NCBI GenBank assembly: GCA_030592645.1
Contig: JAUVIR010000008.1
Location: 1 to 59,965, forward strand
DNA from: Candidatus Fermentibacterota bacterium
GTDB taxonomy: Bacteria > Fermentibacterota > Fermentibacteria > Fermentibacterales > JCC-6
Direction of reading: 5' to 3'
DNA length: 59,965 nt
Shown here: positions 16,126 through 50,131 of the stretch, one piece after another
Layout: each line of letters starts with the position of its first letter
How positions within the stretch are numbered: the stretch's first letter is position 1
Program-made: the position numbers and the translations under genes
The notes under the pieces: model-generated
What the model saw: only the letters and a program-made list of their open reading frames with translations
The model's database searches: none
Told to the model about the DNA's origin: nothing

Positions 16126-16140
16126 AAGACTAGTTGCATT

Positions 16141-16218
16141 ATAGGGGTCGTATCTTGAATTTTGGCATTCTTAAATGTCTTACAAATGAAATGCCAAAAT
16201 TCAAGATACGACCCCTAT
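16141..16218. repeat. Long inverted repeat, copy 1
   Basis: The arms 16141-16169 and 16190-16218 are perfect 29-base inverted complements around a 20-base loop. The outer end is ATAGGGGTCG and the inner end is TTTTGGCATT. The same arms recur at 34394-34466. It lies between convergent genes (esterase plus, cupin minus). It is consistent with a REP/MITE-type element mobilised in trans; no transposase is in the window. Confidence 0.85.
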
Positions 16219-16228
16219 TTTGCGGCCC

Positions 16229-16564
16229 CTATTTTGGTATAGTGCAGAGGAAATCCAGGGGCTCACTGCCGTTATTCACAAAATTGTGCTCTTCATCCGG
16301 CAGTACGAGAATCACGGTTCCAGCACTTATTTTATGATCTGTATCGCCGAGTCTGACAAGGCCGGTCCCGGACAGGACGTAGAGTTCATGCTCCCAGGAA
16401 TGAGTGTGAAACGGGGTGTGTCCGCCCGGTTCAATTGTAAATCGTCTCATAATAAAATTGGGAGCGCCGTCAGCTTCCGAAATGAGAACCCTTTTCTTCA
16501 CTCCACTGGCATTTTCCATTTTCACATCTTCGGCATCTATATCGGTGTATTTACGAATTATCAT
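16229..16564 (-). CDS. Cupin domain protein
   Basis: 111 residues, a single cupin barrel. Metal-binding motif 1 is PGGHTPFHTHSWEHELYVLSG (G-x5-H-x-H-x3,4-E-x6-G); motif 2 is LPDEEHNFVN. It probably binds a divalent metal; ligand or reaction unknown. The ATG at 16564 overlaps the osmC stop by one base (TGATG), with GGAGGTGATTTG as ribosome site. It is the last gene of the leuS operon and ends 11 bases from the inverted repeat. Confidence 0.8.
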   Translation of the reverse strand: MIIRKYTDIDAEDVKMENASGVKKRVLISEADGAPNFIMRRFTIEPGGHTPFHTHSWEHELYVLSGTGLVRLGDTDHKISAGTVILVLPDEEHNFVNNGSEPLDFLCTIPK

Positions 16565-29131: not shown

Positions 29132-29262
29132 TGATAAACCTCCCGGTTCATGTTGCGATTTTTCTAAATCAAATACTGTTTTTGATAATACGCCTAAAGA
29201 TTACCTAAATATGTATAGCAAGTCAACGCAAATCGAATCAAATCGCGTGTTGAACGCTGAAA

Positions 29263-30855
29263 TCAGGGGTACACTTCCAGAGTATTCCCGTCGGTTGACA
29301 TTATGAATGTACCGTCCAGATCGGTTCTGTAAACCAGCGCCCCGTAATTCTCAAGCCTCTGCACTACTTCATTGTGAGGGTGACCGTAAGGATTACCGTA
29401 GCCCACTTCAATGGCAGCGTAATCCGGATCTACCGCCTGCAGCCAGGAACTTGAGGTTGAGGTGCTCGAACCATGGTGTCCAACTTTGAGAACATCTGCT
29501 GAAATATCGTCGATGAATCCCTGGCTCAGGGCGCTGAGTATAACGTTTTCACCGCCGGTGGTTTCAAGATCACCGGTAAAAAGAAAAGATACGTTCTCAA
29601 AGGTTATCCGCAGAACGATAGACGCATTGTTCGCGTCGCCGCCCAGCGGCTCCACAGGATGAATGCATTCAACTGTAAGGTTCTCATCCCAGTTGAGAAG
29701 GTCTCCCCTTCTCGGCGTGACAAAATCCGAACCGTTATCAGAGATCGCCTGAAGGTAAGCCAGGTAAGTTGCCGTAGAATGTTCAAAGCCTGAATCCCAC
29801 ACCGTTGCCACCGGTACATTCTCAAGAACACCGATCAAGCCCCCAATATGATCCGAGTGCGGATGTGTCGCGACAATTCCATCAAGGCTGTCTGCTCCGA
29901 GGCTGTCAAGCAGTGGCAGAACCTTTTCGATTCCGCAGCTCCAGCTTCCACTTCTGTCTCCCCCGTCGATCAGATAGAAGTTGTTATCAGGAGTTCGGAG
30001 AAGAATAGCATCACCGGAATAGTAATCGTTATGTGAAGGATCTATAAAGAATACTGTCAATCTGGGAGTCAGGTCCGGTGTGGTAACCGAGACTTCATTG
30101 CTCCATGAACTGAGCTGTGATTCGTTAAGCGTTTCCACCGCATAATAATAGGGTGTCAGCCCCTCAACTTCATTGTCTTCGTAAGCCGTATCTCCGCTTT
30201 CCTCGGATGTGGAAACGATTTCGGCTGATGAGGGATCACCCTCTATGTCAGGGGTGTTGGAACGGTAAAGGTTATAACGGTAGAAATCACTGTCCGGGCA
30301 TTCGGTCCATCCAAGGGTGATCTGACCGAAAGGACCATCTCCCGTATAAACACCAGTAAGTGTAGAGGGGGAAGGTGGTGCGGCAGCGGGAACAACCACG
30401 GAATCCTCGTTGCTCCAGGAATCCAGATCATCCGAGTTCATGGTGCGTACAGCGTAGTAGTAAGTATTCCCCTCGCTGATACCGGTATCGATCCATGCAG
30501 TACTCGAAACTGATGAGAAAACTACACTGGTATCCGCAGCTCCTGGATTAGATGCGATTCCGGGGGTCCCGGAACGGTAAATGGCATACCAGGAGAAATT
30601 GTCATCAGGGCACTGTGTCCAGACAGCCACTGCCTGGTAGTCACCCTTGCTGTCTATTTCAAGTTCAAGCTCACCTGCAAAAACTGAGACTCTGTTAACT
30701 GCGTTAGTATGAAGGGAACTTGTCTCTTCAAGGGTAACCATGAGTATTGATTCGGTGGGGTTGGAAGCATCCAGAGGCCCCGATGGCTCGCTGCAGGATA
30801 ACAATACAACGATGAAGAGTGTGAGTAGAAAGAATATTGAAAGAATTTGTCTCAT
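29263..30855 (-). CDS. Lipoprotein with two fibronectin-III-like domains and a ComEC-like metallo-beta-lactamase domain
   Basis: 530 residues from ATG 30855 (GGAGG 7 bases upstream). The lipobox is VVLLSC. Two Fn3-like repeats (about 65-155 and 160-255) share W-x-E/Q-C-P-D-x-D/N-F-x-x-Y-x-x-YRS and G-x-T-Y/P-YYYAV. The MBL domain (about 265-530) has HPHSDHIGG, FTGDLE and VGHHGSSTS, the metal site pattern of the ComEC C-terminal and related hydrolases. It lacks the ComEC membrane channel. It is probably a surface or periplasmic hydrolase, perhaps a nuclease or phosphodiesterase. Substrate unknown. Confidence 0.8.
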   Translation of the reverse strand: MRQILSIFFLLTLFIVVLLSCSEPSGPLDASNPTESILMVTLEETSSLHTNAVNRVSVFAGELELEIDSKGDYQAVAVWTQCPDDNFSWYAIYRSGTPGIASNPGAADTSVVFSSVSSTAWIDTGISEGNTYYYAVRTMNSDDLDSWSNEDSVVVPAAAPPSPSTLTGVYTGDGPFGQITLGWTECPDSDFYRYNLYRSNTPDIEGDPSSAEIVSTSEESGDTAYEDNEVEGLTPYYYAVETLNESQLSSWSNEVSVTTPDLTPRLTVFFIDPSHNDYYSGDAILLRTPDNNFYLIDGGDRSGSWSCGIEKVLPLLDSLGADSLDGIVATHPHSDHIGGLIGVLENVPVATVWDSGFEHSTATYLAYLQAISDNGSDFVTPRRGDLLNWDENLTVECIHPVEPLGGDANNASIVLRITFENVSFLFTGDLETTGGENVILSALSQGFIDDISADVLKVGHHGSSTSTSSSWLQAVDPDYAAIEVGYGNPYGHPHNEVVQRLENYGALVYRTDLDGTFIMSTDGNTLEVYP

Positions 30856-30929
30856 CAGAACCTCCATAAATCAGTCAGCATAAGTGAAACATACTTCCAC
30901 TTGCAGAGCTTCGCTATCCAGTGTTGCTC

Positions 30930-31730
30930 TCAGAGAATCTTGTTCCAGCCGGCGGGGGTTTTCCTGTAACCGGACATTTCCAGAGTGATTTCATCGCCGT
31001 CCCACACTGTAAACCTTACCGCCCTGCAGCCCTGATACTTCAAGTACCGCTCAAGGGTTTCAAGGAATTTGTGAACCGGTAGATTCTCAGCGATCTCAAC
31101 CTCTGTAACGATGGAGACCGCTCCGGGCTTCAGGACCATACTGCCCAGCTTCTCCCCCGAAAGTTCAAGAACCAGTCTGTCCTCTTCACCTTTGACAAGG
31201 CGGGGCGCGTTTTCTTCAGTTCTTCTGCGCTGTTTTATTCTCAGATGAAAGATAGCCAGTAAATATAGAACCCCGAATGAGAGGATGGCCTCCATGACCG
31301 GCACATTCCCCTTCAGAACAATCAGAATTGCAAGCAGTATCCCATGCGAGAGGAAGACCAGCCCCATGACAATGGACATCTCACCGGAGAACTCACTGCC
31401 GGCTGAAAACCCGGTGACCCTCTTCATCTGGGAAGCCAGCCACGGTTTTCCTCTTGCGGTTGAGATGAGCAGCACACCTGCGAGGATAAGCTCGAGAAGC
31501 ACGTATCCAGCTCCGCTGTATCCCAGAGCAGACAGCATCTCACCGGCAAGACCTGCGGACGCCAGCACCGCGCCCTCCAGAATGAGTGCGGGGTGCTTTG
31601 TACCCCGGAAAACCAGCAGGAAAAGGAACTCCCCAAAACCAAGGGCTAACACAGCAAAGGCGGCAGCGTATCCGCCTAAGAAGATATCAGCTGCAAGGTA
31701 TCCGGCGATTACAATAAGAGTCGGGTACAT
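30930..31730 (-). CDS. Integral membrane protein with C-terminal soluble domain
   Basis: 266 residues. Five or six membrane helices fill residues 1-165. An internal stretch, GKPWLASQMKRVTGFSAG, recalls the IspZ/YciB or VC0807-like membrane families, but the match is loose. The last 95 residues are soluble, with TEVEIAENLPVHKFLETLERYLK. Function unknown. The ATG follows the clpB stop after one base, so it depends on clpB expression. Confidence 0.6.
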   Translation of the reverse strand: MYPTLIVIAGYLAADIFLGGYAAAFAVLALGFGEFLFLLVFRGTKHPALILEGAVLASAGLAGEMLSALGYSGAGYVLLELILAGVLLISTARGKPWLASQMKRVTGFSAGSEFSGEMSIVMGLVFLSHGILLAILIVLKGNVPVMEAILSFGVLYLLAIFHLRIKQRRRTEENAPRLVKGEEDRLVLELSGEKLGSMVLKPGAVSIVTEVEIAENLPVHKFLETLERYLKYQGCRAVRFTVWDGDEITLEMSGYRKTPAGWNKIL

Positions 31731-35564: not shown

Positions 35565-36509
35565 ATGGATTCTTCAGTACACCTCAGTACGGAGGAACTC
35601 TATATAACCGGAGAATCGGATGAACCTCTTGACCTGGCAGTTCTTGCCGGATCCATGATAGTTCTTCTCGGTAACGATGAAACCATCGCTCCTGACCTTG
35701 CCCTTATTCTCGCAGGCAGAAGAGCTCCTGCTTCCGGGATTGTCCGCCTCGGAGATGATGACCTGGATGTCAGAAGTCACAACGCAAGAGGAAGGGTTGA
35801 ATACGTTTCCTGCGATTTCTCCTGTCCTCCGGGAATGACCGTCTCAGGACACCTCTCCCTTGCATCCGCAGCAGCAGGTTACAGTAAAAAAGATACCAGG
35901 GATGTTCTATCACAGCTTTACACCTGGTGTTCACTTGAAAACTGTATTGATGAAAAGGTGAATGAGCTTTCGCCCGATGACCGGTACCTTACCGCCTTTG
36001 CCGCCGCTTGTCTGCCGATTCCAGATGTCTTTGTGCTTCAGGGACCCTTTCCTGAAAAACTGCATCCGCTCCTCGAAGACATCTGTCAGGGAGGGTGCGC
36101 GGTCATCGCATCCCTTCCAGAAGTTCATTGCATACCTCAATCAACCGACAGGATCGCAATCTGTGACTCTGATGATGTAAGACAGATCGTAAGGCTCGGG
36201 GAATTGTCGGATGCCTGTTCCCATCTTATGCGGCTGCAAGTCAGGTTCTTTCCTGTCCTGCCCAGAGCAGTAATGGAAAGCCTGCCCGGAGCCCGGAATG
36301 TTCTGGCAATACATGGCGGATACGAATTCCTTCACACTGGACTCTCCACTGCAGTTACAAACCTGGTTAACCTTGCCAGGGCCAATTCAAGACAGATAAC
36401 AGGGCTTGAGGTAAAACCACCCTCAAACTCCGAATTAATGGAATACTTCACAGTTGATGATGAACCTGGAGAGGCGGATCTTTTTTGCGCAGAAGGCCTG
36501 GATATCTGA
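35565..36509 (+). CDS. Degenerate ABC-transporter ATPase (pseudo-ATPase)
   Basis: 314 residues with the overall ABC layout but no catalytic motifs. Where Walker A (GPNGAGKST) belongs, near residue 34, the sequence is GNDETIAPDLALILAG. It is followed by the usual P-x-SG-x-V-x-LGDDDL. The signature LSGGQ is LSPDD, and Walker B plus Glu (LLLLDEP) is DVFVLQGP. A C-terminal region (about 220-310; ITGLEVKPPSNSELMEYFT) matches the domain that follows ATPases of ABC-2 exporters. The reading frame is intact and long, so it is a maintained protein, not a pseudogene. It overlaps the permease gene by 25 bases. It probably acts as a structural or regulatory partner. Confidence 0.65.
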   Translation: MDSSVHLSTEELYITGESDEPLDLAVLAGSMIVLLGNDETIAPDLALILAGRRAPASGIVRLGDDDLDVRSHNARGRVEYVSCDFSCPPGMTVSGHLSLASAAAGYSKKDTRDVLSQLYTWCSLENCIDEKVNELSPDDRYLTAFAAACLPIPDVFVLQGPFPEKLHPLLEDICQGGCAVIASLPEVHCIPQSTDRIAICDSDDVRQIVRLGELSDACSHLMRLQVRFFPVLPRAVMESLPGARNVLAIHGGYEFLHTGLSTAVTNLVNLARANSRQITGLEVKPPSNSELMEYFTVDDEPGEADLFCAEGLDI

Positions 36510-37183
36510 GAATTTACGCCTCTGTATTCCGGTATATGTCGGAATGGGCTTTACGCAGGCAGCTTTTTATCTGGATTCTGCTGGCCGCTCCCTTAATTGC
36601 ATGGATCCTCCCGGGACAGACTTCTGTTCCGTTTCTGCCCCTGGTGATATCCTGCATTACATACTGCGGGCCAGCCGCATTCATCGCGGGATGGCGCTGC
36701 TCGAGTGCAAGAAGTAACCTTGCGGATATCCTGTTCAGCACAAAAGCCGGGAAATACTCGCTGATACTTCCGGAGATTCTGCTCCCCGTGCTCGCCGGTG
36801 TGCTTCCCGCGCTTGGTCTGGCGATCCTCTGGACAGCAGGCAGAGGCGGTTTCCCCTGGCAGTTATGGGTAGTTATTCCCTTCGCTTCTCTGACCGCTGT
36901 TTCAATAACGATTCTTCTGGAGAAGTACCTGCATCAGACGGGATATATGCTCAATCTTCTGGCTTTCATGGCTCAGGCATCCACCGCATCATGGGTCCTC
37001 TCCCCTGTTTTCCAGCTCATGATACCTCAAGGATATGTTCTGTGGACTCTGAGATGGATCGATGGCAGCGGGGCAGCTTACCACGGAGATATGTATGTTT
37101 TCGCAGCGGTAATTCAGGGAATCGGATTGATACTACTCACGGTTAAAGTGCTCTCAGATTCAGGAATGAACCGTTCAGCGTAA
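36485..37183 (+). CDS. ABC-2-like membrane permease
   Basis: 232 residues from TTG 36485, where GGAGAGG lies about 11 bases upstream inside the preceding gene; ATG 36536 is an alternative. About six membrane helices (for example FIWILLAAPLIAWILPG, SLILPEILLPVLAGVLPALG, AAVIQGIGLILLTVKVLS). Size and topology fit a half-size ABC-2 type export permease. It is coupled by overlap to the pseudo-ATPase. A diverged copy of its last 18 codons is found at 40891-40946. Confidence 0.6.
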   Translation: MRRRPGYLRIYASVFRYMSEWALRRQLFIWILLAAPLIAWILPGQTSVPFLPLVISCITYCGPAAFIAGWRCSSARSNLADILFSTKAGKYSLILPEILLPVLAGVLPALGLAILWTAGRGGFPWQLWVVIPFASLTAVSITILLEKYLHQTGYMLNLLAFMAQASTASWVLSPVFQLMIPQGYVLWTLRWIDGSGAAYHGDMYVFAAVIQGIGLILLTVKVLSDSGMNRSA

Positions 37184-37198
37184 TCTCGGGATTTCCAT
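37128..37198 (+). repeat. Junction repeat, left copy
   Basis: 71 bases covering the last 18 codons and stop of the permease plus 15 bases. They align without gaps to 40891-40961 at 54 of 71 positions, including a perfect 15-base core (37143-37157). The two copies bracket the 3.7-kb block of three accessory genes. Confidence 0.8.
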
Positions 37199-37223
37199 TA
37201 ACCTTTGATCAAAAGCAATTGAT

Positions 37224-37252
37224 TTGACCAATTGTGATGATTTCATGATAAT
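37224..37252 (+). promoter_or_regulatory. Predicted promoter, possibly giving a leaderless mRNA
   Basis: TTGACC at 37224-37229 and GATAAT at 37247-37252 are separated by 17 bases. The ATG of the next gene is at 37262, only 10 bases after the -10, and has no ribosome site. Transcription would start within a base or two of the start codon. Confidence 0.5.
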
Positions 37253-37261
37253 TAACTTACT

Positions 37262-38773
37262 ATGCTTAAACTGATATTGTATCTGAGTTTCTCTGGAACA
37301 ACCATAATAACAACCACTCCTAATGGTTCGTTTGACTATCTGGAGTATGATAATTATGCGCATGTTGTTGAGGGTGAGTTTATCACTGAGAGCGCTGATT
37401 CTGTCTACTTAAGAGTCACTGAAGTCTGGACAGGGTCATCCGAAACTGGTGATGAACTGACACTCTTCATTTGGTCCAGTACATTCCTTGAGCAGGGAGA
37501 GAAGGCTCTTTTCATAGCAGATAGCACTGGAATACTTCAGTGCTTAGGTCATGCAAGAGAAGGCTTCTATATCTTGATTGGAAACACTTCTCCGAACATC
37601 CTTACGGTGGATGATCTGGAATTGCTATCCCGGGGAGATGAACCGGAGTTCAATAAGCATGAATCTCAAATCACTGTTCGATTTCCGCTTTCCTCAGAAG
37701 TGATCGATATCACGGTTGCTCCAACGGAGAACGGTAGACGAACTATTTCAAATTACTTACCCTGGAATGATCTGGATCCATTTGGAAACATCTGTTCAGG
37801 CTACACTAATATGACGGAATTCGGCATGATCCCATCTGAAGATGATCTCTATCAGGGAGTTCAGTTGGGTATTTTCGCTGGTGATGTCAGAAAGTACTCT
37901 GGTGGTACCTATTTCATTGATCTCTGGCCGAAGTACCCCTGCTTTGCATCCATACAGAATATGGATGATTTCCATGAATACGGCTCAATTCCCGTCTATA
38001 TGTTCAGGATCGAGATGGAGAATGAAGATTACTGGTCCATAGGTTTGCCAGATGAAGCTATCATGGTTAGTGCTGGCAGGGATTTCTACCTGAGAGGCCG
38101 GCAAAGATGGGCTTCAGAGGATACTAGAAGATACTTGGAAAATTTCGATCTTTTCTTCAGAACATTCGCTTCAGGTGGTTCCGGTTATTCAAGCAGAGGT
38201 ACTATACTCAGGATTGACGACATGGACCGCGAATTGAACCGTCCTCTCCTTGCTACCATGTTGAAAGTACTTAAGGATCGACCGATCTCTGGAACTCTGT
38301 ATTTTGTTGAGTCAGATGATTCTGAACCAGAGCTATATTCCGACTGCACCATAAGCCTATATACACCAACTTTCGAGATTGCAGCAACTTGCGATACTAC
38401 TACTATGGATGCATTGATTAACGATGTTACTCTATCGTTCAATGATACTGGCAGTGCCATCTTGGAATATGACGGCAGAACTTTTCCTCAAATACACATG
38501 AATCTGGGCTTCCCATGGTCCGGCGTTCACCCTCCAATAAGACAATACACCTATGCCGTGTTTGATTATCCTGGAGATGGGGATTATTACCTTCTTCTCC
38601 ATTTTTCAAGTGTTCGTCAGAGTACATACATTGATGGTGCAGATGATATGCTGATATCGGCACTCATTCATTATTGGATAAAAGATGGCATAATTGAGGG
38701 TAAGATCTACAAGTTAGACAGTACTAGTTTTGAAATAGGACACGTCGGAACTTTCTCAATGTCAAAGATTTAA
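37262..38773 (+). CDS. Hypothetical exported protein of accessory block
   Basis: 503 residues. A short hydrophobic N-terminus (LKLILYLSFSGTTIITT) may be a weak signal peptide. The first 130 residues (AHVVEGEFITESADSVYLRVTEVW, then GEKALFIAD) have the pattern of small beta-barrel NTF2/TIMP-like exported domains, but no family was recognised. The rest is beta-rich and acidic with no catalytic motif seen. No sorting tail. Codon use is richer in A+T than in flanking genes. It is convergent with the VCBS gene, whose stop is adjacent. Confidence 0.65.
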   Translation: MLKLILYLSFSGTTIITTTPNGSFDYLEYDNYAHVVEGEFITESADSVYLRVTEVWTGSSETGDELTLFIWSSTFLEQGEKALFIADSTGILQCLGHAREGFYILIGNTSPNILTVDDLELLSRGDEPEFNKHESQITVRFPLSSEVIDITVAPTENGRRTISNYLPWNDLDPFGNICSGYTNMTEFGMIPSEDDLYQGVQLGIFAGDVRKYSGGTYFIDLWPKYPCFASIQNMDDFHEYGSIPVYMFRIEMENEDYWSIGLPDEAIMVSAGRDFYLRGRQRWASEDTRRYLENFDLFFRTFASGGSGYSSRGTILRIDDMDRELNRPLLATMLKVLKDRPISGTLYFVESDDSEPELYSDCTISLYTPTFEIAATCDTTTMDALINDVTLSFNDTGSAILEYDGRTFPQIHMNLGFPWSGVHPPIRQYTYAVFDYPGDGDYYLLLHFSSVRQSTYIDGADDMLISALIHYWIKDGIIEGKIYKLDSTSFEIGHVGTFSMSKI

Positions 38774-40402
38774 TTACTCCCAGGTTACTGTTACGCTGTT
38801 CAATACTGGCGTTAGATCCGGATTGTCGGATTCCAGGACCACCTTGTACTGAAAAGTCCCGGAACTCGATTCTCTATAGTCCAGCAGACTGCCCGGTTCG
38901 ATCATAGGACCGTACCAATCCATTGAATCCATATTATCGAATCGAACATAAAATGAAATAGATGTGCCCTCAGGCTCTTCAGAAGACCAGGCTATATCCT
39001 GCCAGATAGTAGATTCGTCAGCTAGAAGAACCTCCGAGAGAAGTCCTCCTGTTCTATCGCTGCTGAAATGATCTATGAACCAGATGTTATAATCGGATAT
39101 ATAGATTAACTCCTCAGTACCGTTTCCATCAACATCGGCGCAAACAAGATTCGTCAATGATTCATCAAAGACGATTAAACGCCGTTCAAACCCAGCATTC
39201 TGATCGTACGCCAACATGAACTGTTCTGATCCTGCAGTCTTATAGTTGTGTAATATCCAAGATCCGCCATCTGCAATCTTCTCAAAACAGTATCTTTCCG
39301 TGCAGATATCCTGATCTCCGTCATTGTCAATATCACCAGAGCATACAGGAGCGTATATCGTACTGGATACTTGTTCATTCAGTAACAATGTATCCGCAAC
39401 CCAACGGGATCCTTGATACTCAAACAATACAAATCCATCTCTTGAATATCGATGCTGTCTAGAATCAATAAGAACGAGTAAACTGGGAAATGTGCTTTCA
39501 ACATCTGATATAGTTGATGCAGGTAGCAGAAGTACTAGTCCTATTCTGTCAATCGTGACTCTTGAAGATATATATAATCGGGATTGCGTGTATTCATTCT
39601 CTTCGAACCGGTGGACTCTTAATTCATGAGGCCAATGAGAAGTCACTATATACATCTCCTTGGATCCATCACCATCGTAATCATCAACCACCATAGATAA
39701 AAGAGAGAAAATAGAATTTTCATCTCTATCAATAATATGCTTCACCCACTCCGAATCATCTGTACCGGGATTTTCCCACCACGCAGTGTCAGTTGAAGTG
39801 CGATTTCTGCCAATGATGTCTTCCAATCCGTCTCCATTGAGATCAAAACAGACTAAATTGCTTCCGATATAGAAGTGCTTATCGATGTTCCTGGTAACCC
39901 AGACATCCTCCTCTATCTGAAAGGAAATGCACAATCCATCCTCATCCGATATCACAGCAAGGTCTCGAAGACCATTGTCATCGAAATCAGATACAGCTAA
40001 AATTCTTGGTTTGTAGAATGGGTCCTGAATATTGTGATACAGCCAGCTGGAGTTATCACTCACATTCTCCAACCATCCAATTCTATTATCTATTTTCTGC
40101 AGTAGAAATAGATCAATATCTCCATCTGAATCAACATCGGTCGGTATAAAACTGGTTATCCTGAAATCCTGCTCAAAACTTATGGGTTCTCTCACAAATC
40201 CGCTGGTCAGTACCAGGGAACCGGGAAGGCTAAAACAGTCTATTCCCCATGCTGAATGGAACCTGTCATACCATTCAAACGTACCTCTTAGTTCCCTCTC
40301 CCCTCCTTCCCATGTTGTCTGTGTTGCACAACAACTCAAGCTAGTATCCTGAGCAATGCATGGTTTGAGAACACCAACAATAAGAACGAGCGATGCTTTC
40401 AT
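38774..40402 (-). CDS. Exported VCBS-repeat protein of accessory block
   Basis: About 542 residues from ATG 40402 (signal KASLVLIVGVLKPCIAQ). Upstream in-frame starts would overlap the previous gene and lack a signal peptide. The body has FG-GAP/VCBS repeats: DVDSDGDIDLFLL, DFDDNGLRDLAVI, DLNGDGLEDIIG, DYDGDGSKEMYIV, DIDNDGDQDICT and DVDGNGTEELIYI. These form a calcium-binding beta-propeller, followed by a C-terminal beta domain (DLTPVLNSVTVTWE). There is no sorting tail, unlike the VCBS protein at 274-1677. Function unknown; probably binds a surface or polymer. Confidence 0.75.
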   Translation of the reverse strand: MKASLVLIVGVLKPCIAQDTSLSCCATQTTWEGGERELRGTFEWYDRFHSAWGIDCFSLPGSLVLTSGFVREPISFEQDFRITSFIPTDVDSDGDIDLFLLQKIDNRIGWLENVSDNSSWLYHNIQDPFYKPRILAVSDFDDNGLRDLAVISDEDGLCISFQIEEDVWVTRNIDKHFYIGSNLVCFDLNGDGLEDIIGRNRTSTDTAWWENPGTDDSEWVKHIIDRDENSIFSLLSMVVDDYDGDGSKEMYIVTSHWPHELRVHRFEENEYTQSRLYISSRVTIDRIGLVLLLPASTISDVESTFPSLLVLIDSRQHRYSRDGFVLFEYQGSRWVADTLLLNEQVSSTIYAPVCSGDIDNDGDQDICTERYCFEKIADGGSWILHNYKTAGSEQFMLAYDQNAGFERRLIVFDESLTNLVCADVDGNGTEELIYISDYNIWFIDHFSSDRTGGLLSEVLLADESTIWQDIAWSSEEPEGTSISFYVRFDNMDSMDWYGPMIEPGSLLDYRESSSGTFQYKVVLESDNPDLTPVLNSVTVTWE

Positions 40403-40433
40403 TGCATAAAGCGATGTTAACGGGAATGTCGAG

Positions 40434-40781
40434 TTATATCTCGATGAGGATCGGTATTTCTTCACTATATCCACTCCTGAGTTTAAACTCCACAACCACC
40501 CTTGAAGCACTTGTTACAATCACATCGATACTGATTCTTTGCATACCAACCATCAATGCCTGAAGAGAATAGAAACCCGGAGGAATCCCAGATATAGTAA
40601 ATTCTCCGTTACAGCCGGTCATAGCTCCCAATGCAGTTCCAACGATCATCACAGTTGCACCTTCGAGGGGATGCCCTCTGTAAGTCGTTACAATGCCACG
40701 TATAGTGCCCGAAGTTAATTCTTCAGAGCTTGAAACAACTGGATTTAGTACAATAGTAAGCAGTAGAATTTTCAATAGCAT
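40434..40781 (-). CDS. Small exported carboxypeptidase-regulatory-like domain protein
   Basis: 115 residues. A signal peptide (LLKILLLTIVLNPVVSSS) is followed by one CarboxypepD_reg-like beta-sandwich: GTIRGIVTTYRGHPLEGATV, then GEFTISGIPPGFYSLQALMVG. This is the N-terminal module of TonB-dependent receptors, but here it stands alone. AGAGGTGAG precedes the ATG. The VCBS gene starts 31 bases downstream, so the two likely form a unit. Confidence 0.75.
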   Translation of the reverse strand: MLLKILLLTIVLNPVVSSSEELTSGTIRGIVTTYRGHPLEGATVMIVGTALGAMTGCNGEFTISGIPPGFYSLQALMVGMQRISIDVIVTSASRVVVEFKLRSGYSEEIPILIEI

Positions 40782-40890
40782 AAAATACTCACCTCTTAGG
40801 ACAATTTAATCAGACCTTCAGAGAGATGCAATAAACAGAATACATAGGTTCAGAATACGGAGCTGGAATGAAATACTCTGAGATAAAATC

Positions 40891-40961
40891 TGATACTCCT
40901 CGCACTTAAAGTGCTCTCAGCGACGGTAATGAAACATTCAGATTAACTTCGGGAAATCCAT
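40891..40961 (+). pseudogene. Junction repeat, right copy: relic of the permease 3' end
   Basis: Read in the frame of the permease, this segment gives LILLALKVLSATVMKHSD and a stop at 40944-40946. The permease ends LILLTVKVLSDSGMNRSA and a stop. Upstream the frame is broken by a stop, so only the 3' end remains. Its stop overlaps the stop of the glycosylase gene on the other strand. The rest of the 40782-40942 gap has no gene. Confidence 0.7.
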
Positions 40962-41566
40962 CTGGAGCCATTGAGCACAAACCTTCTTTTCAAGTCGAAT
41001 CCACTGGTGATGCCGATGCGCTTTGTGACTGCTATATCAGGTCTGCTGCCCTCAGTCCGAACCAGTACCTGAATCTCCCCGTCTTCCAGCGAGATACCAT
41101 TGTGGTTTCTGTCTATTCCGAACGCCTCGGAGAGTTTACCAGGACCACTGCACAGATTCATGAGTTTTTCCGTTCTGCGGTTCGCAATCATAAGTTCAAT
41201 TCCTTCAAACGGTTGGGCGGCACGGATCAGAACGGCTTCTCCACTTCCTGGTATTCCGGATGTAACATTGAAGCAGTTGTGAACACCGTAGATCAGATAT
41301 ACGTAAGCCAGCCCCCCTCTCTCGAACATGAGCCGATTTCTGGGGGTTCTGCCGCGGAAGGAATGGCTTGCCGGATCATCCTGGGTGTAAGCCTCGGTTT
41401 CAACAATTATCCCGGATATGAATCCGCCGCCAACCTTCCTTCTCAACAGACAATCGATAAGATCAGGGGCCAGTACTACAGCATCCCTGCTGAAGAATCC
41501 GGCGGGCGGCGTTGTGTAATTCTCCAGAATCCTCCTCCTGTTTCCAAAAGAGATAATAACGTACAT
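40943..41566 (-). CDS. DNA-3-methyladenine glycosylase (AAG/Mpg family)
   Basis: 207 residues from ATG 41566. The AAG fold signatures are GIIVETEAYTQDDPASHSFRG (catalytic Glu in the ETEAY motif), YVYLIYGVHNCFNV and LCSGPGKLSEAFGI. It removes alkylated purines in base excision repair. The ATG at 41566 overlaps a TATAAT on the same strand, and AGGAGG appears 30 bases downstream. Translation may therefore begin near 41527 (CTG), giving about 194 residues starting ENYTTPPAGFF. Divergent from the HIT gene. Confidence 0.92.
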   Translation of the reverse strand: MYVIISFGNRRRILENYTTPPAGFFSRDAVVLAPDLIDCLLRRKVGGGFISGIIVETEAYTQDDPASHSFRGRTPRNRLMFERGGLAYVYLIYGVHNCFNVTSGIPGSGEAVLIRAAQPFEGIELMIANRRTEKLMNLCSGPGKLSEAFGIDRNHNGISLEDGEIQVLVRTEGSRPDIAVTKRIGITSGFDLKRRFVLNGSRWISRS

Positions 41567-41600
41567 TATAGTTAGAGATTAAACAGGCAAGGAGGATGAA

Positions 41601-41978
41601 ATGAGTGACTGTCCATTCTGTAATCCCGATGAAGACAGAATCATCTGGAGAGATGAGAATGTGTACGTTATTCGCGACCTTTACCCGGTATCCCCGTCCC
41701 ATTCGCTGATTATTCCCTTCAGACATTTCGCAAGTGTATTCGATGCCACCGAAGAGGAGCTGACCTCCATGTCCCGCGCGCTCAGTTTCAGAAAGAAACA
41801 GCTCGAGCAGTCCCTTGCAGCGGATGGTTACAATATCGGAGTGAATGAGGGAAAATCTGCAGGGCAGACGATACCTCATGTTCATATACACCTTATACCG
41901 AGATTTGAACGGGACGTTGATGATCCAAGGGGGGGAATAAGGGGAGTTATTCCAGAGAAGAAAACATATCCCAACTAA
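41601..41978 (+). CDS. HIT family hydrolase
   Basis: 125 residues. CPFCNPDEDRIIWRDENVYV is the usual HIT N-terminus with a CxxC pair. HVHIHLIPRFERD gives the histidine triad with the catalytic His. It belongs to the Hint/Fhit-like nucleotide hydrolase group; the natural substrate is not known. ATG 41601 follows AAGGAGG. The promoter lies in the short divergent region shared with the glycosylase gene. Confidence 0.9.
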   Translation: MSDCPFCNPDEDRIIWRDENVYVIRDLYPVSPSHSLIIPFRHFASVFDATEEELTSMSRALSFRKKQLEQSLAADGYNIGVNEGKSAGQTIPHVHIHLIPRFERDVDDPRGGIRGVIPEKKTYPN

Positions 41979-42091
41979 ACCCATCACCGAGCATTGCGGA
42001 TCCTCTTCTTACCTGCCGGATGAGCTGTGGTTCCGCTTCCACCCCGCCCCTGTGAAACAGCGATGGTTCGTGGGTTTTGAAGCTTAAGTCT

Positions 42092-42844
42092 ATGAAGAGG
42101 ATGTTGATGAGAAATAAGAGATCATTCGAAGAAACACTGAAGTGTATTCAAGCGCCGATGGTTCTCGATGTCGCAACGGGAAACGGTAACTTCGCAGATC
42201 ATCTGAGAACAGAGTATGAGGGTATCGGCACCATCACAGGCATCGATGTAAGCCCGAATGGATTGGAAAGATCAAGGAAAGCACTGGAAAAGATCGATGA
42301 CATGCTCACTGTATGCATGGACTCTTCGGAACTGGCATTTCCCGCGGGGAGTTTCGATATGGTCTGCATTTCCAATTCCCTTCATCACATGGCAAGGCTG
42401 GATGATGCTCTTGCGGAGATGATGCGAGTACTCAGACCCGGTGGATATTTCCTTGTACGCGAAATGTACAGTGATAATCAGACCGAAGCACAGATGATGC
42501 ATGTTCTGATGCATGAGTGGTGGGCAACTATCGACACGCTGAATGGAATACCCCATTTCAGTACTTTTCCCAGGAAGGAAATCCTTCTTGTATGTGGAGG
42601 GCTTGATCTTGAAGAGATGATCGTCGCTGATTACTCATTCCTTGAGAGTGATCCTTTGGACAGAGAAGTAATAGACCGCATAAACGGCGCCATAGATACC
42701 TATATCGCAAGGATAGAAGATCCCCAGAGTAATTCAGAACTGGCCCGGAGGGGCGAACAGCTGAGAAATAGACTTCACAATGTCGGCTTTCACAGGGCCA
42801 CTTCCCTTGCGCTTCTTGGCATGAAACCATCGAGCGCTATATAA
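42092..42844 (+). CDS. Class I SAM-dependent methyltransferase
   Basis: About 250 residues. The SAM motifs are VLDVATGNGNFADHL (motif I), GIDVSPNGLERSRKAL, FDMVCISNSLHHMARLDDAL and LRPGGYFLVREM. It belongs to the UbiE/Methyltransf_11 type; the acceptor is not identifiable. The start is uncertain: TTG 42077, ATG 42092 or ATG 42107. The last has an AAGAGG at suitable distance. Bases 41979-42091 hold no other gene. Confidence 0.85.
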   Translation: MKRMLMRNKRSFEETLKCIQAPMVLDVATGNGNFADHLRTEYEGIGTITGIDVSPNGLERSRKALEKIDDMLTVCMDSSELAFPAGSFDMVCISNSLHHMARLDDALAEMMRVLRPGGYFLVREMYSDNQTEAQMMHVLMHEWWATIDTLNGIPHFSTFPRKEILLVCGGLDLEEMIVADYSFLESDPLDREVIDRINGAIDTYIARIEDPQSNSELARRGEQLRNRLHNVGFHRATSLALLGMKPSSAI

Positions 42845-42950
42845 TTCACGGGAACTGATTCTACACAGAATGTATTGTTTATTAATAAGTTATAGGCTAC
42901 TCGGAGTTACTGTATTTTTATATTTAAAACAATTAACTGAAAGGTGAACC

Positions 42951-44696
42951 ATGAAACTGTTACTGACCCTTTTTCTTATAACCGGACTGGCCCTTTCCGG
43001 AACCATCTCCCCCCGGCTTTCAGAGGAGATGAGTACTTCTGCAGACACGGAGCTGTTCAGTGTATTGATCAAACCTGTTGGCTCTGTAGATACGGAATAC
43101 ATAGCCATGGCCACTGTAGGAATGACCAGGGACGAAAGACGCGCATTTGCAGCAGGAGTAATGAAAGACCGGGCCGCGGAAGCCCAGGCGGGTATTCTTG
43201 CGCAGCTTTCAGTTTATGGCGATGAATCCGTTTCGGATGTCCATCCGTTCTGGATCGTTAATGCAATAGTTGTTTCACTTTCGGCAGAGGTTATTGAACA
43301 GATAGCCATCAGAGACGACGTTCTTTTCATCAGGATGATGAACACCGAGAACGCTCTCATTGAACCTGTTGATATTCATCCCTCCACTCATGATGAACTG
43401 GATGCCGTAGCATGGGGTGTATCCCAGATAGGAGCCCCGGATGTCTGGTCTCTTGGATACAACGGCTCCGGTGTGGTGGTCAGTATCGTTGATACCGGCG
43501 TGAATCACGCCCATTGGGATCTGCACAATAACATGTGGCACGACACGGCTGCCGGTTTCCACTACGGATGGGATTTTGAAAACAACGACGGCGACCCGAT
43601 GGATTCAAACGGACACGGAACCCACTGCGCCGGAAGTGTCGCCGGTGACGGTACGGCGGGAACCGAAACGGGTGTTGCACCCGGGGCAACGATAATGGGC
43701 CTGAGAGTGGCCAACTCAACAAGTGCAGAAGCCCAGTTATGGGATGCCTTCCAGTTCAGTATCGACCACGACGCCGATGTAATTTCAACTTCAATGGGCT
43801 GGCTGCAGTCATGGGATCCGGATCGTGTGTCATGGCGCGAATCCGAGGAGAATGTCCTTGCAGCAGGCATCTGCCATTCGGTAGCGGCGGGAAATGAGGC
43901 CGGCAACACTTCCACATACGGTGACATAAGAACACCGGGAGACTGCCCGCCTCCATGGCTCCATCCCGACCAGACCACATCAGGAGGTCTTACGGCTGTT
44001 GTAACCGTCGGCGCAACAGACATCGGAGATAATATCGCCAGTTTCTCCAGCGTCGGTTATTCAACCTGGATGTTCGATGATCCCTGGTTCGATTACAACG
44101 ACACTTCACCTAATATCGGCCTTATCGATCCGGACATCTCCGGACCCGGCGTGGATATTGTCAGCTGTAACCTTACAGTCTCAGGATACACCACCATGAG
44201 CGGAACCTCAATGGCTACTCCTCACCTTGCCGGATGTATGGCGCTGGTAATAAGTGCCAATCCCTCCCTTTCGCCGGCAGTAGTTGACTCCATCCTTGAG
44301 GTAACGGCCCTTGAACTGGGCAGTGCCGGTAAGGATAATGTATTCGGTTCGGGAAGGGTTGATGTGTACGAAGCCGTACTTGCTGCTCTTTCAGTATCGA
44401 TAGAAGAAGGTCTGGGCGAAGAATCCCCTCATCAGCTCCTGATAGCACCCGCTGGACCCAATCCGGCATTTTCTTCCGTACTGTTCGACCTGTACACAGG
44501 CACTTCATCTAATGTGGAAGTATCCGTATACGATGTTGGAGGACGTGTTATTGATGTTATTCACAGCGGAGAGCTTGCAGGCGGAAACCACAGTTTCACC
44601 TGGGGAATTCCGGAAACAATGAGTTGCGGCATCTATTTCCTGAGAGCTGAAACTCTCAATGATACTGCCACTATGAGATTTACCGTATTGAAATAA
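42951..44696 (+). CDS. Secreted subtilisin-like serine protease (S8) with sorting tail
   Basis: 581 residues. A signal peptide and an inhibitor-like propeptide (about 20-130) are followed by an S8 domain with Asp181 (IVDTGVNHAHWDL), His222 (GHGTHCAGSVAG) and Ser420 (SGTSMATPHLAG). The C-terminal sorting tail has GPNPAFSSV, then VYDVGGR, then W, then GIYFLRAE, ending FTVLK. It is exported, and probably autoprocessed. The ATG follows GAAAGGTG. A terminator follows the stop. Confidence 0.92.
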   Translation: MKLLLTLFLITGLALSGTISPRLSEEMSTSADTELFSVLIKPVGSVDTEYIAMATVGMTRDERRAFAAGVMKDRAAEAQAGILAQLSVYGDESVSDVHPFWIVNAIVVSLSAEVIEQIAIRDDVLFIRMMNTENALIEPVDIHPSTHDELDAVAWGVSQIGAPDVWSLGYNGSGVVVSIVDTGVNHAHWDLHNNMWHDTAAGFHYGWDFENNDGDPMDSNGHGTHCAGSVAGDGTAGTETGVAPGATIMGLRVANSTSAEAQLWDAFQFSIDHDADVISTSMGWLQSWDPDRVSWRESEENVLAAGICHSVAAGNEAGNTSTYGDIRTPGDCPPPWLHPDQTTSGGLTAVVTVGATDIGDNIASFSSVGYSTWMFDDPWFDYNDTSPNIGLIDPDISGPGVDIVSCNLTVSGYTTMSGTSMATPHLAGCMALVISANPSLSPAVVDSILEVTALELGSAGKDNVFGSGRVDVYEAVLAALSVSIEEGLGEESPHQLLIAPAGPNPAFSSVLFDLYTGTSSNVEVSVYDVGGRVIDVIHSGELAGGNHSFTWGIPETMSCGIYFLRAETLNDTATMRFTVLK

Positions 44697-44721
44697 CTCA
44701 CGATCAGTTTCTTCGCGAAAG

Positions 44722-44750
44722 AACCCCGTCTCCTGAGGGAGGCGGGGTTT
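44722..44750. terminator. Terminator between the S8 protease and tamB genes
   Basis: AACCCCGTCTCC (44722-44733) pairs with GGAGGCGGGGTT (44738-44749), with one G-T pair, around a 4-base loop. It lies between two convergent genes and could serve both strands. Confidence 0.75.
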
Positions 44751-44752
44751 CG

Positions 44753-47700
44753 CTAATACCTTATGGTGTAATGCAGCTCGACGGTTGGCTCGAGATATCC
44801 GTGTATGGTGGTTCTGCTGGTTCCCTCAGCGTAGAAATCAGGACTGAAAAGGTACTGGACGCTGACAGTTCCAGGATCGGCAGAGAATACATCGTCTTTG
44901 TACGAAACGTAAAGATCGGGCAGTACATACTTTCCAACATTGAGTACAAGGCTCGTCGTATCGGAAAGCAGCTCCGGTGAAATCTCGAATGTATCAAGGC
45001 CGATCTCATGCCTGAGATTCCGGGCAAGAAGGCTTCCCAGCATAGTCTGGGCTACATTCTCAACTTCGGATCTGATAGAACTTGAATTCATCTGCTGCAT
45101 CTCGCCGTAGGTCAGTCCTACTGCCAGCAGTGTAAGAATATCCTCCTGCGCTACCTGGCCGGATGGACCCTGGCAGGAGAGGGAGATATCAAGATTCTCC
45201 AGATCTCCGGAAATGACAATTGTAATTACGTATTCCTCGTGGCTTATCATGCTGCGCACCCTGGTTTCGGCTGTTACGTTCAACTGCATGACCGGAGGAT
45301 TGCCCTGTATGATATTCACCCTTCCTTCAGTTATCTGGAAATCCCTCTGAAGCAGAGTGATCCTGCCTCTTACCGCCGATACATATCCGTTCACTGTCGG
45401 CTCTCGCTCAAGCGTGAATATCCTTAGTTTCAGAGCCATCTCGATATCCGCGAAGTTCGTTCTGAACCAGAGATCCCCTGTCCCGGCCACATCAATGGAG
45501 AGATCGAATGGAAGCTCCCCTGAACCACTGGACGAGGAGGAACTGACCGGTTGAGGAATACCCACCGCACCCTCTATAATCTTAATCTGCCCCGACAGGA
45601 CAGGTCTTTCTTCCAGTCCGTTTCCACTTGATGAAAGCCCTCCTGAGCAGATGACAGCTCCCATTCCCGGTATGGCGATCTCCATATCTGACAGTGTGGA
45701 ATTGAGAGTGTAACTGCCTAATTCAAAGGGGATCAGACTTACGATATCAGCATACCAGCTTGAGGAAAAGTTTCCAGTGCTCTCACTGCCGGAACCAAGC
45801 GTAAGCCTGGCGTTGTATCCCCTTTGGGTAGTGTCGGGATAATTCATGTAGAAATTCACATTCGGCAGTTCTATTCCAAGCACGGTTATATACAGCCGGT
45901 TTATCCTTGCTGACGCTTGAATCTCCAGAGAATAATCCTCGGAATTCTTCTCGTACTCGATCCTCGCAGAAACACTTGCCCCCATGGTTTTCACGGGTGA
46001 CGGCAGAATATAGAAAAGCCAGTCACCTATATCGTTAACCTCAAGCTCAAGCCATTGGATCTTATCAAATAGAAGAGCAGCATCGGTTCCGGCCCAGACA
46101 TCAACGGCTCTCATCTGAAGACCGGATCTGACACCATCATGCCACGCGTATATCCCGTTCACATTGAAAGCATTGTTCTGTGCGGAAATATCAAGTGTTA
46201 TGCTGTCCATCCTGAACTGACCGTAAACCGGATCCGATATCTGTCCAATCAGGGAGCCGTGAACACCGGATGTATCGCTGAGATAGGATAATCTGAAGTT
46301 ACCGACCCCCGACATATCTGCAGGTAAGCCGGAGAAGGTACTGAATGAACTGAGATCGAAGTTTACAATATCAGCGTGCATTTCCATTTTTTCTGCGCTT
46401 AGCATCCCGGACATGGCAAAATCTCCCACTGGAGGGTCGAGCCAGAGAGTGTCCAGGGTTATCGTACCGTTTTCAGTGAATCCTGACAATCCTCCGGATG
46501 TGATCACTCTCAGCTTGGAGTGGGTAGCCCTTATCTCCTCTACACTGAAAGAGGTTGTATCACCTTTCCCTACTTCTATTTCAGCCGTATACAGCCGGTC
46601 AGCTGAACCGGCAAGAGTTAACCCGTCTATTCTGATGCCGTACTCATCAAGCTTGATGTCCGCTGTTGTGTGGAAAACGTCGGAGAGTACTCTGAGGCTG
46701 TCTATCAGAAGGGATGCGTCTGCAGACAGGGAGGAACCTGCGATGCCGAATGTTCCCTCCAGGGATGCAGTGTCAGCCTCCACCCCTTCCGCTTTGAAAC
46801 CAAGGACTTCAATACCGCCATCGAAACTCGCTCCGAATGGAATCCCGGCGATGATGTTCCTTGTCGAGTAATTAAGGGTACCGTCAACGGATACCCTTTC
46901 GGCTGACATCCCCTCCACTTCAAGCCCTCTGACTCCCGCGCTGCCTCGTATATTCATGCCGAATCCGCTGCCGCTTCCGCTCAATGAGAAGTACGCGGAG
47001 GTTATATCGGGACAAACATCCAGGCAGTATTGCCTGAAAAATGCAAGATCTCTCACCTCACCATCAGCCTGCAGTATCCAGGATTCAGGAATCCATCCCG
47101 ATCCGAGATACCCGCTGCCGGTGAACGAAGCATTCCCGCTGCTGCTGCCCACCGACCCTTCCAGGCTGAAGGAATTATCTTGCAGAACCGCACCGACATG
47201 AAGCGTTGAAAGATCGATAATTTCCGAATATGATTCCGAGATATCGACTGTCACTGAGCCGTACAGACCGGAGTATCCGGTTCCTCTGCCCCGGGCATGA
47301 ACAGAACCGGTAATACCGGTAGCCCAAAAGTGTGCCAGGTATTCAGAAACATCAGTATTCATCATGTTCAGATCTAACGCTGCACTCCATTCAAGAGATT
47401 CAATGTTGAATGCTCCGTCAAAGTATAATTCGGCATCATCCGTCACAAGATGCAGATTCCGAACGCTGATATCCTGAAGATCGGCTTTCAGTGTATCCAC
47501 TTCAAAGGACGCTTCGGTTCCGAAAAGAACAGCTCGAATGCTCGTCAGTTCAAGTTCCGCCTGGAGATCGGGCAGCCTGCTATTTATTCTGCCCTCAATA
47601 AGGATAGACAGATCAACTGGTACATCATAGGATGAAGTCCCGGCTATTCCTGAAAACTCGACATTCAGAGTTTCCTCCGGGCCGGACAGGGTTCCGGTAA

Positions 47701-48388: not shown

Positions 48389-50131
48389 CTAGAAAGCATG
48401 GCCTATCCCGATATATATCTTTCCTCTCTTGAGGGAATTCCTCCAGGTAGGCGCGAAACCATAATCAAGCCTTATAGGGCCGAAGAGTGTATGGTAGCGG
48501 AGTCCGAATCCTGTACCGAAGCCTGCCGTCTCGAAATCAACCTCTTCGAACGAGTTCCAGAGCCCGCCCGCATCTGTAAACAGAACAACTCCGAAATTTC
48601 CGATTATCCGAACGCGGATCTCGAAATTTCCAAGAACTTCGAGCCGTCCTCCTATGGGGTTTCCCTCATCATCCTTAGGACCCAGTGAATTGAATGGATA
48701 ACCCCTCACTGTTGTTCCTCCTCCAAGGTAGAACCTGTCGTCCGGAGGTACGGTAGTATCATCACCGTAGGGAAACGAACCCCCGAGCTTCAGGCGGGAG
48801 GCCAGAATAAAATCTTCATTCAGCGGAAAGTAGAGCCTTCCTTCAGTGAAGGCACTGTAGTAATCACTGCCGCCCAGAAACCCTCCTGACAGCTTCCCCC
48901 CCGCCATCATCCAGTGTCCCCGCAGAGGATCAAGAAGTGGACTTCTTGTATCGTGCGAAATAGTTGATGTGATACTGGAAGTTGTCCGCCAGTCGGTAGT
49001 GGTGAAACTGCTGTCCGCCCATTCGTTGTACTTCTCGTACTCGAGGCTGTAACCGATAGTGAATTTCAGATGATCGGTGATGTCTCTTGCGAATGTGGAC
49101 GTTATTGAATAACTTCGCAGCCTGATACCTGGTGTGAAAAGGTAGAGATAGCCCAGTTTCAGCTGCCATTTCCATCTTGTTGACAGGAACCATGGCTCCT
49201 CGTAAATGATCTCAGGTTTCAGCATTCGACCATCCCTTGAACCGAAATATTCCATCATGTACATGCCGATGGACAGCCTCTGATTGTTCCCCATGATATT
49301 GGGATGAAGCCAGGTGACGCTTCCGAACATGGCCGACGGAGATACGTAACCGGTACCCAGATCCACTCTTTTGTATCTGCTCTCACTTAACGAAATATCA
49401 AGGTCTACGATACTGCTGTCATTCTCGATCGGGTTGTAGGTAAATCTTACATCCTGGAACAGGCCAAGTCCGTAGATATTGCTGACAGACTGTCTGAGCA
49501 GTTCCATGTTCAGGGAATCACCGGGCTGGATCAGTACTTCTCTTGTAATGACCGTTTCTCGGATAGTTTCCAGTCCTGCAACGGAAACATCGCCGAGGAA
49601 TACCTGTTCATTCTCATCAATATTGCATTCCACTGCCCTGTATCCGGTTTCACTATCTACTTCGCTTATGCTCAGAAGATTAATGCTGATGGATGAATTG
49701 ATGTAGCCTCTTTCATTGTACAGATCGAGTATGGAATTCTTGAAGGAAAGTGTATCTACGGGTGTTATAGGCTCGCCCGGGACTCCCGGATAAAGCGAAG
49801 CCAGAGAATCGGCGGTAAAAACTACAGCACCATTGAAAACGAGACCGGAGAGAAGACTTCTTACCCCGGCTTCGACCGAAATTCTCACCATATCTGTCTC
49901 ATCATCCCAGAGAGGCCACTGGACGGTCACAACAGCATCAAGGTAGCCAATATCGTTCAGGTTTGCAATGATACCGTCTCTCACCTGTACCGGTGTTATC
50001 CGAAGAAGGGATGCCCCTTCTTCAAGCCCTGTTCCGCTTAGAAGTTTATGTTCGGATACGGGAAATTCCCCGTATACGTATATGGAATCAACTACAGGTT
50101 CGGTGAAATCTCCATACACGAATGAAGACAT
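48389..50131 (-). CDS. tamA: BamA/TamA family outer-membrane assembly protein
   Basis: 580 residues from the first in-frame ATG (50131). Two or three POTRA domains (about 10-240; VDSIYVYGEFPVSEHKLLSG, then VFLGDVSVAGLETIRETVI) precede a 16-strand barrel of the Omp85 type. The barrel has the RFYLGGGTTVRGYPFNSLGP motif (VRGF/Y) and ends in FGPIRLDYGFAP ... YIGIGHAF. It has no signal peptide from this start. Reading upstream in frame to ATC 50168-50170 adds TRRLTPFLLVLF and makes a full signal peptide ending FVYG. Its place next to tamB suggests TamA rather than BamA. Confidence 0.88.
   Translation of the reverse strand: MSSFVYGDFTEPVVDSIYVYGEFPVSEHKLLSGTGLEEGASLLRITPVQVRDGIIANLNDIGYLDAVVTVQWPLWDDETDMVRISVEAGVRSLLSGLVFNGAVVFTADSLASLYPGVPGEPITPVDTLSFKNSILDLYNERGYINSSISINLLSISEVDSETGYRAVECNIDENEQVFLGDVSVAGLETIRETVITREVLIQPGDSLNMELLRQSVSNIYGLGLFQDVRFTYNPIENDSSIVDLDISLSESRYKRVDLGTGYVSPSAMFGSVTWLHPNIMGNNQRLSIGMYMMEYFGSRDGRMLKPEIIYEEPWFLSTRWKWQLKLGYLYLFTPGIRLRSYSITSTFARDITDHLKFTIGYSLEYEKYNEWADSSFTTTDWRTTSSITSTISHDTRSPLLDPLRGHWMMAGGKLSGGFLGGSDYYSAFTEGRLYFPLNEDFILASRLKLGGSFPYGDDTTVPPDDRFYLGGGTTVRGYPFNSLGPKDDEGNPIGGRLEVLGNFEIRVRIIGNFGVVLFTDAGGLWNSFEEVDFETAGFGTGFGLRYHTLFGPIRLDYGFAPTWRNSLKRGKIYIGIGHAF

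Follow-up and report, generated by a model that had tools for sequence, protein, structure and literature searches.

A gene slot in a Fermentibacterota genus bracketed by duplicated ends of overlapping genes: possible additive capture of a three-gene cassette

Our finding that a block of three genes in a 59,965-nucleotide stretch from a Candidatus Fermentibacterota bacterium (contig JAUVIR010000008.1 of assembly GCA_030592645.1; hereafter 'the window', which is the whole of contig C73 of its own genome) is bracketed by two diverged copies of the junction between a membrane protein gene and a methylpurine-DNA glycosylase gene suggests, with somewhat better than even confidence, that a cassette was captured additively in the slot between these genes, in a manner resembling a single crossover, that the junction was duplicated in the process, and that the duplicate was retained where the genes overlap. 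The comparison rests on 19 genomes of the genus including its own (18 others) and, for the first cargo gene, on 35 family genomes other than its own, designated here by G numbers, with G046 representing another genus; the near relatives used are metagenome-assembled genomes.

The left copy (37128–37198, plus strand) and the right copy (40891–40961, plus strand) are identical at 54 of 71 positions without gaps, as the original prediction, made from the window's sequence alone, had stated. When the left copy is compared with the rest of the window on both strands, the runner-up 71-mer has 37 matches, and the best score reached in 200 first-order Markov windows, searched on one strand, is 41. Likewise, a query of the own genome with window positions 37000–37260 returned only these two places at E ≤ 0.001 (right copy, E 9e-8). 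The excess of 54/71 over the simulations, together with analogous structures in G016 and G014 (see below), leads us to reject chance similarity and assembly error. The left copy comprises the last 18 permease codons, the stop codon and 15 bases; it encodes the protein end LILLTVKVLSDSGMNRSA, followed by the stop, and serves as the working 3' end of the permease gene. The right copy translates as LILLALKVLSATVMKHSD, stop, lacks a gene in front of it and overlaps the end of the glycosylase open reading frame (ORF), so that a relic permease end is followed by the working glycosylase end, again as predicted. The earlier view that the copies are too diverged for a recent duplication fits these data.

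The left neighbour of the slot is an ORF for a membrane protein (36485–37183, plus strand), previously described as an ABC-2-like permease and called the permease here, which matches no Pfam or NCBIfam family at E ≤ 0.01 and has homologues in 17 of the 18 other genus genomes (12 of 18 sequences entered the permease alignment, those of G010, G004, G006, G008, G015 and G017 being left out). The right neighbour is the methylpurine-DNA glycosylase gene (40943–41566, minus strand; PF02245, E 2.9e-58; NF002003, 191.5 bits against a cut-off of 182), found in 15 of the 18. Both genes lie on one contig in 14 other genus genomes, and in 12 of these their aligned ends are 6–46 bp apart (ten junctions measured, those of G004 and G008 taken from coordinates); the remaining two, G013 and G016, have 1.5 and 2.1 kb, respectively, between permease and glycosylase. 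In G002 the two genes are on separate contigs, and in G010 and G014 unrelated DNA follows the permease and no glycosylase was found in either assembly. The window's two flanks align to a single junction in each of G011, G012 and G003, where they overlap by 52, 50 and 51 bp, and a single junction therefore matches both window copies. In all three of these empty relatives the stop codons of permease and glycosylase overlap, with the bases TTAA in common. The comparison with related genomes for which the original prediction had called thus yields permease and glycosylase directly adjacent, with a junction matching the right copy.

Comparison with the same relatives is in line with a division of the original functions between the two copies. 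Relative to the permease end of G011, the left copy differs at 1 of 18 residues and the right copy at 7 of 18. In the permease part, the left and right copies have, respectively, 47 and 42 of 53 bases identical to G011, 42 and 39 to G003, and 39 and 37 to G012, and in the glycosylase part the order is reversed, with 11 and 15 of 18 bases identical to G011, 10 and 12 to G003, and 11 and 13 to G012. The contrast in these base counts is modest. The permease protein end is kept by the left copy and the glycosylase end by the right copy.

Between the copies lies the inserted cargo (37219–40890, right edge placed by eye), which has 41.9% G+C and comprises three predicted genes of 42.0–42.6% G+C against 49.0% for the window, in agreement with the A+T-richness noted originally. 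Gene 1 (37262–38773, plus strand; 503 residues) belongs to no Pfam, NCBIfam or PADLOC family and has one weak PHROGs match of unknown function (E 0.002); among the 35 other family genomes, strong homologues (E < 1e-100) occur only in G011, G004 and G046. Convergent with it, gene 2 (38774–40390, minus strand; 538 residues) encodes an FG-GAP repeat protein (PF13517, E 2e-14), its likely start being at 40390 in an ORF that extends to 40510, and gene 3 (40434–40781, minus strand; 115 residues) encodes a carboxypeptidase-regulatory-like domain (PF13620, E 9.5e-15). The N-termini of all three proteins appear hydrophobic by eye. At the cargo ends inverted repeats were not seen by eye, its genes matched no transposase in Pfam or NCBIfam, and the cargo does not qualify as a DNA transposon. 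The 20 bp between left copy and cargo (37199–37218) have no counterpart in the G011 cargo; they may continue the duplicated glycosylase end in degraded form. A BLAST comparison of 37199–37262 with the glycosylase side (40941–44800) gave no match, and a gapped alignment that prolongs the left copy to about 37214 is open to doubt, as good a score being reached by 22 of 2000 shuffles in a test that included 15 bases of the known match.

The same convergent trio is found at other loci in G011 (contig C15; 83.2% identity over 3681 bp, window 37219–40893) and in G004 (contig C166; 83.5% over 3574 bp, window 37335–40899), both by BLAST, and, distantly, in G046 (37–44% amino acid identity). Its neighbours there are, to judge by their sequence, HipA-like and glycosyltransferase-like in G011 and BirA-like in G004. 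Empty sites on the one hand and cargo at other loci on the other imply that the block is a moved cassette and that the copies are a duplicated recipient junction; insertion at a direct permease–glycosylase convergent junction, the core of the original prediction, is hence upheld. The homology to the G011 cargo stops within 3 bp of the start of the right copy, at 40890 by eye. In the core genes compared the window is nearer to G011 than to G004 (amino acid identity 95 vs 88% for an oxidoreductase, 83 vs 61% for the ABC gene, 86 vs 58% for the permease and 76 vs 61% for the glycosylase), whereas the three cargo genes are about equally close to both (74 vs 77%, 79 vs 76% and 68 vs 78%). This pattern of relative identities argues for horizontal movement of the cargo, and the three genes probably came from elsewhere. 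A further element of the original interpretation, that the incoming DNA may have brought its own gene end, found no support for the cargo as such: self-BLAST of the G011 cargo locus revealed no flanking repeat, and a permease-end query has six matches in G011, all of them away from the contig with the cargo. It is possible, however, that the cassette carried such an end if it came from a relative already holding it beside the permease.

The slot has been used repeatedly, since different DNA follows the permease in the window, G002, G016, G013, G010 and G014. According to Pfam, the G016 slot holds a Castor/Pollux-like channel protein and the G013 slot a C25 peptidase. The gene in the G010 slot (L060:1–567), truncated where its contig stops, aligns with the C-terminal portion of the PADLOC model Dsr1 (E 5.9e-17) and is possibly a defence gene; the G014 slot has a gene without a Pfam family, and the G002 slot contains one gene with an FlgD-type tail below the cut-off and one without family. 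A second permease end is present in G016 (77% over 82 bp, E 1.6e-9) and in G014 (90% over 81 bp), in each case with other DNA between the copies; in G014 it is followed by more non-glycosylase DNA. Sequence resembling a tRNA 3' end adjoins the second permease end in G014 (L130, about 716–759, minus strand); ARAGORN applied to L059, on the same G014 contig, detected no complete tRNA.

We also considered whether a common tail after the permease stop codon in G010, G014, G016 and G013 is a remnant of the glycosylase end, and rejected this, as the left-versus-right comparison in G016 was the only one to gain support (a score equalled by 1 of 2000 shuffles). For left tails compared with G011 and G003, the shuffles scoring as well (of 2000) number 484 and 585 for the window, 620 and 572 for G002, 199 and 797 for G014, 641 and 670 for G010, 1848 and 1996 for G016, and 41 and 61 for G013. 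A dispersed repeat was likewise discarded as the cause: the tail motif has exact copies nowhere but in the G014 slot, and the other 10 of 12 matches have 3 mismatches.

A scan for one-sided indels of at least 700 bp (7 syntenic contigs, 21 pairs) identified 49 indels; in 7 of them, all at two loci, the flanks share 15 bp or more at the empty site. Six of these are the permease–glycosylase junction, with the window and G016 each compared with G011, G012 and G003. In the seventh case, 6.95 kb are inserted in G013 at the junction of a yicC-like gene and gmk, so named from their motifs. In G018 these two genes have 8 bp in common, provided that TTG is the gmk start. The copies bounding the G013 insert (contig C11, L188–L190; reverse-complemented 41653–41769 and 48675–48790), which form a scar at yicC-gmk, are identical in 84 of 119 aligned columns, with none of 1000 shuffles as good. 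Beside the gmk start of the outer copy stands a 36-bp remnant of the leader and start codon of yicC, 32 of whose bases match (0 of 1000 shuffles as good) and which by eye joins the last yicC codons at a short AGGCT repeat. In the intact order, the yicC leader lies about 0.9 kb from the gmk start. The simplest reading of this arrangement is that the whole of yicC and the gmk start may have been duplicated and most of the spare yicC later deleted; the leader relic favours a larger duplication, such as a single crossover gives. Two further indels showed no duplicated junction.

It is then tempting to propose the following course of events. The slot lies between two genes whose stop codons overlap (TTAA) in close relatives, and a cassette-bearing molecule with a stretch of local homology would integrate there, either by single crossover of a circle or by one-sided homology combined with end joining. 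Integration would duplicate the homologous stretch on either side of the cargo, and the left copy would become the permease end, the right copy being a decaying permease end that still bears the glycosylase end. Later deletions could trim the surplus duplicate where genes are spaced; where they overlap, trimming would be slowed, since a duplicate of overlapping gene ends is not fully removable without damage to a gene. On either side of the window cargo the recipient locus is indeed repeated in direct orientation, as in a single-crossover merodiploid. The data show (i) empty and filled sites, (ii) the cargo's occurrence elsewhere, (iii) a right boundary defined within a few bases, (iv) recurrence, and (v) the second locus with its remains of a larger duplication; that integration ran in this way and that selection restricts trimming we infer.

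Several observations weigh against this proposal. About 53 bp of permease end persist in the right copy though the glycosylase has no need of them, no further pieces of the window duplication were found beyond 71–90 bp nor any sign of a larger original size, and a large, still intact duplication was not observed as an intermediate. The same loci recur between pairs, which means that the 49 indels do not count as independent; among six direct-repeat pairs from 40 stretches of G000 and G013 (739 kb surveyed in all), none was a clear two-copy duplication of a gene end. The inserts of G002, G010 and G014 are incomplete, with the right ends of the G010 and G014 slots unassembled. The G004 cargo alignment begins only at 37335 and enters the right copy by 9 bp. 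The case for movement rests on relative identities: the oxidoreductase, at 88% to G004, exceeds the cargo in identity, and a high identity to G004 is by itself no sign of movement. The right copy of G002 is short; comparison of its extension with G011 and with the window's right copy gives nominal support (52 and 105 of 5000 shuffles as good), and comparison with G012 or the window's left copy gives none (2420 and 3218). Finally, the G013 insert at the permease–glycosylase site has no duplicated permease end; in G018, the sister of G013, permease and glycosylase ends do not overlap, which fits trimming in this single case.

Among the alternatives, one ancestral duplication that dates from the base of the clade, after which cargo was swapped or lost by homologous recombination in the flanks and the empty relatives arose as reversions, is possible though on the whole doubtful; it is partly compatible with capture by single crossover, and the odds of the two overlap. 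By eye, the left copies of the window and G002 have common changes after the stop codon, and the right copies of the window and G016 start 2–3 bp apart or less. In addition, hotspots without mobile elements show more recombination at their flanking core genes, according to the part of the hotspot study drawn on here (PMC5635113). However, the copies in G014 are 90% identical as compared with 76–77% in the window and G016, which suggests at least two separate duplications at this slot, and both window copies read GTGCTC where the left copy of G002 and the three close empty junctions read GTACT (by eye), suggesting a later duplication or gene conversion. Moreover, in the flank tree, 5 of whose 13 inner branches are weak, the empty G012 and G003 are nested beside the filled pair formed by the window and G002, so that precise loss would have been needed repeatedly.

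Repair of a staggered break with 70–120-nt overhangs, in which the cargo was captured and fill-in duplicated the target, appears unlikely but predicts the same final anatomy: since both give the order copy, cargo, copy, a long target duplication and a single crossover are not separable by anatomy alone. Cargo and right copy adjoin to within a few bases, and the duplicates in the window, G016 and G014 are similar in size, as such repair would have it. Yet the yicC leader, whose relic persists at the second locus of G013, lies about 0.9 kb from the gmk start in the intact order, so that the duplication there exceeds such an overhang, and the other 42 of the 49 indels have no duplicate.

We consider it improbable that an element of the integrase type, inserted at the 3' end of the permease gene, brought along a version of that end and later lost its integrase. 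Its anatomy would equal that of e14 at icd, where the part of the published account used here gives a duplicated gene end of 163 bp (PMC6379469), and tandem permease ends do occur in G014. Integron-type integrases score above the NCBIfam cut-off in 10 of the 19 genus genomes, its own included (e.g., G000:C14:27405–28328, L173); as to an integron cassette, self-BLAST, run without a covariance search for attC, exposed no array in four of nine contigs with such a gene (IntI), and the sole repeats, both on G016 C108, were a direct pair (86% over 205 bp) and an inverted pair. On the other hand, no integrase or transposase was matched among the three window genes in Pfam, NCBIfam or PHROGs, nor in Pfam among six genes from the inserts of G016, G014, G010, G013 and G002, which do not cover every gene, three of the inserts being incomplete. 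The permease end is missing at the G011 cargo locus, implying that the attachment sequence is not constant, the start of the right copy differs by about 9 bp between the window and G014 (by eye), and the second locus has the same anatomy in other genes.

Slightly less probable still is a course in two steps, with a short tandem duplication of the junction arising first as a spacer and the cargo entering later between the copies: by eye, the left copy of G016 contains about 23 bp in tandem duplicate, but a cargo-free tandem junction is absent among the ten empty junctions inspected, and the gap between cargo and copy is at most a few bases on the right and 20 bp on the left. A dedicated route, in which a trans-acting recombinase, perhaps an integron-type integrase, inserts cassettes at gene ends, duplicating about 100 bp of target and using a local sequence like TGRTACYCC at the entry point, is very improbable. 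The right copy begins TGATACTCC, and in G004 the extra bases adjoining the same cargo end are TGGTACCCC, which belong to a repeat dispersed through the genus; the sequence adjoining that end in G011, GGAAGTCCG, does not fit.

The motif GGTACCCC, which we had examined as a candidate attC site, is a dispersed repeat that in places lies within tRNA-like 3' ends (by eye); no copy of this type was found in the window. A dispersed repeat, GGTACCCCGTGGTGGAC...AGAACT, has its core in 12 of the 19 genus genomes, often with a TTCTAA/TTAGAA palindrome (L128:5249–5286 and 9857–9894; L161, L163, L164), and brackets the cargo trio in G004. Within the window, a dispersed repeat of about 100 bp at 16139–16241 and 34389–34491 matches both directly (79%) and inverted (91% over 75 bp), and is thus an imperfect palindrome. 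The window also holds a neighbouring insertion spot (41979–44745) with, by eye, methyltransferase-like and subtilisin-like genes and no duplicated junction; both genes are missing at that place in G011 and G013, and G018 has only the first. A 1.7-kb segment at 29244–30930 has a counterpart of about 0.17 kb in G011.

Captured genes mostly leave no trace of their entry route. If, within an insertion scar, duplicates of overlapping gene ends are what selection erases only slowly, overlapping junctions would record additive gene capture, so that entries could be found, the entry point told and the event dated from the divergence of the copies. The pattern is testable in any bacterial genus with good genome sampling. 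Junction duplication at overlapping genes was not found among the titles and abstracts listed for the literature searched, a scope outside which most subscription papers fall.

Three known systems invite comparison, each as far as the portions of the reports considered here describe it. Like the mobile-element-free hotspots (PMC5635113), the window slot has variable cargo between fixed core genes, and neither an integrase nor a transposase was detected in the insert; a duplicated junction, however, which those portions do not describe, is present at the inserts of the window, of G016 and at yicC-gmk in G013 (G002 being ambiguous). With e14 at icd of E. coli (PMC6379469), the window has in common that the 3' end of a protein gene is duplicated, that the end at the element completes the gene, and that the old end is a relic; here, in contrast, the insert contains no integrase, the G011 cargo lacks a gene end, and the second locus is in different genes. 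The third is single-crossover integration with partial gene duplication in E. coli, where foreign DNA is likewise flanked by duplicated target, with duplications of 109–950 bp in 14 sequenced clones explained by single crossover of recircularised DNA (PMC3240628). There, a laboratory plasmid with engineered homology was used, whereas the duplication in the window is natural, old, and kept at overlapping gene ends.

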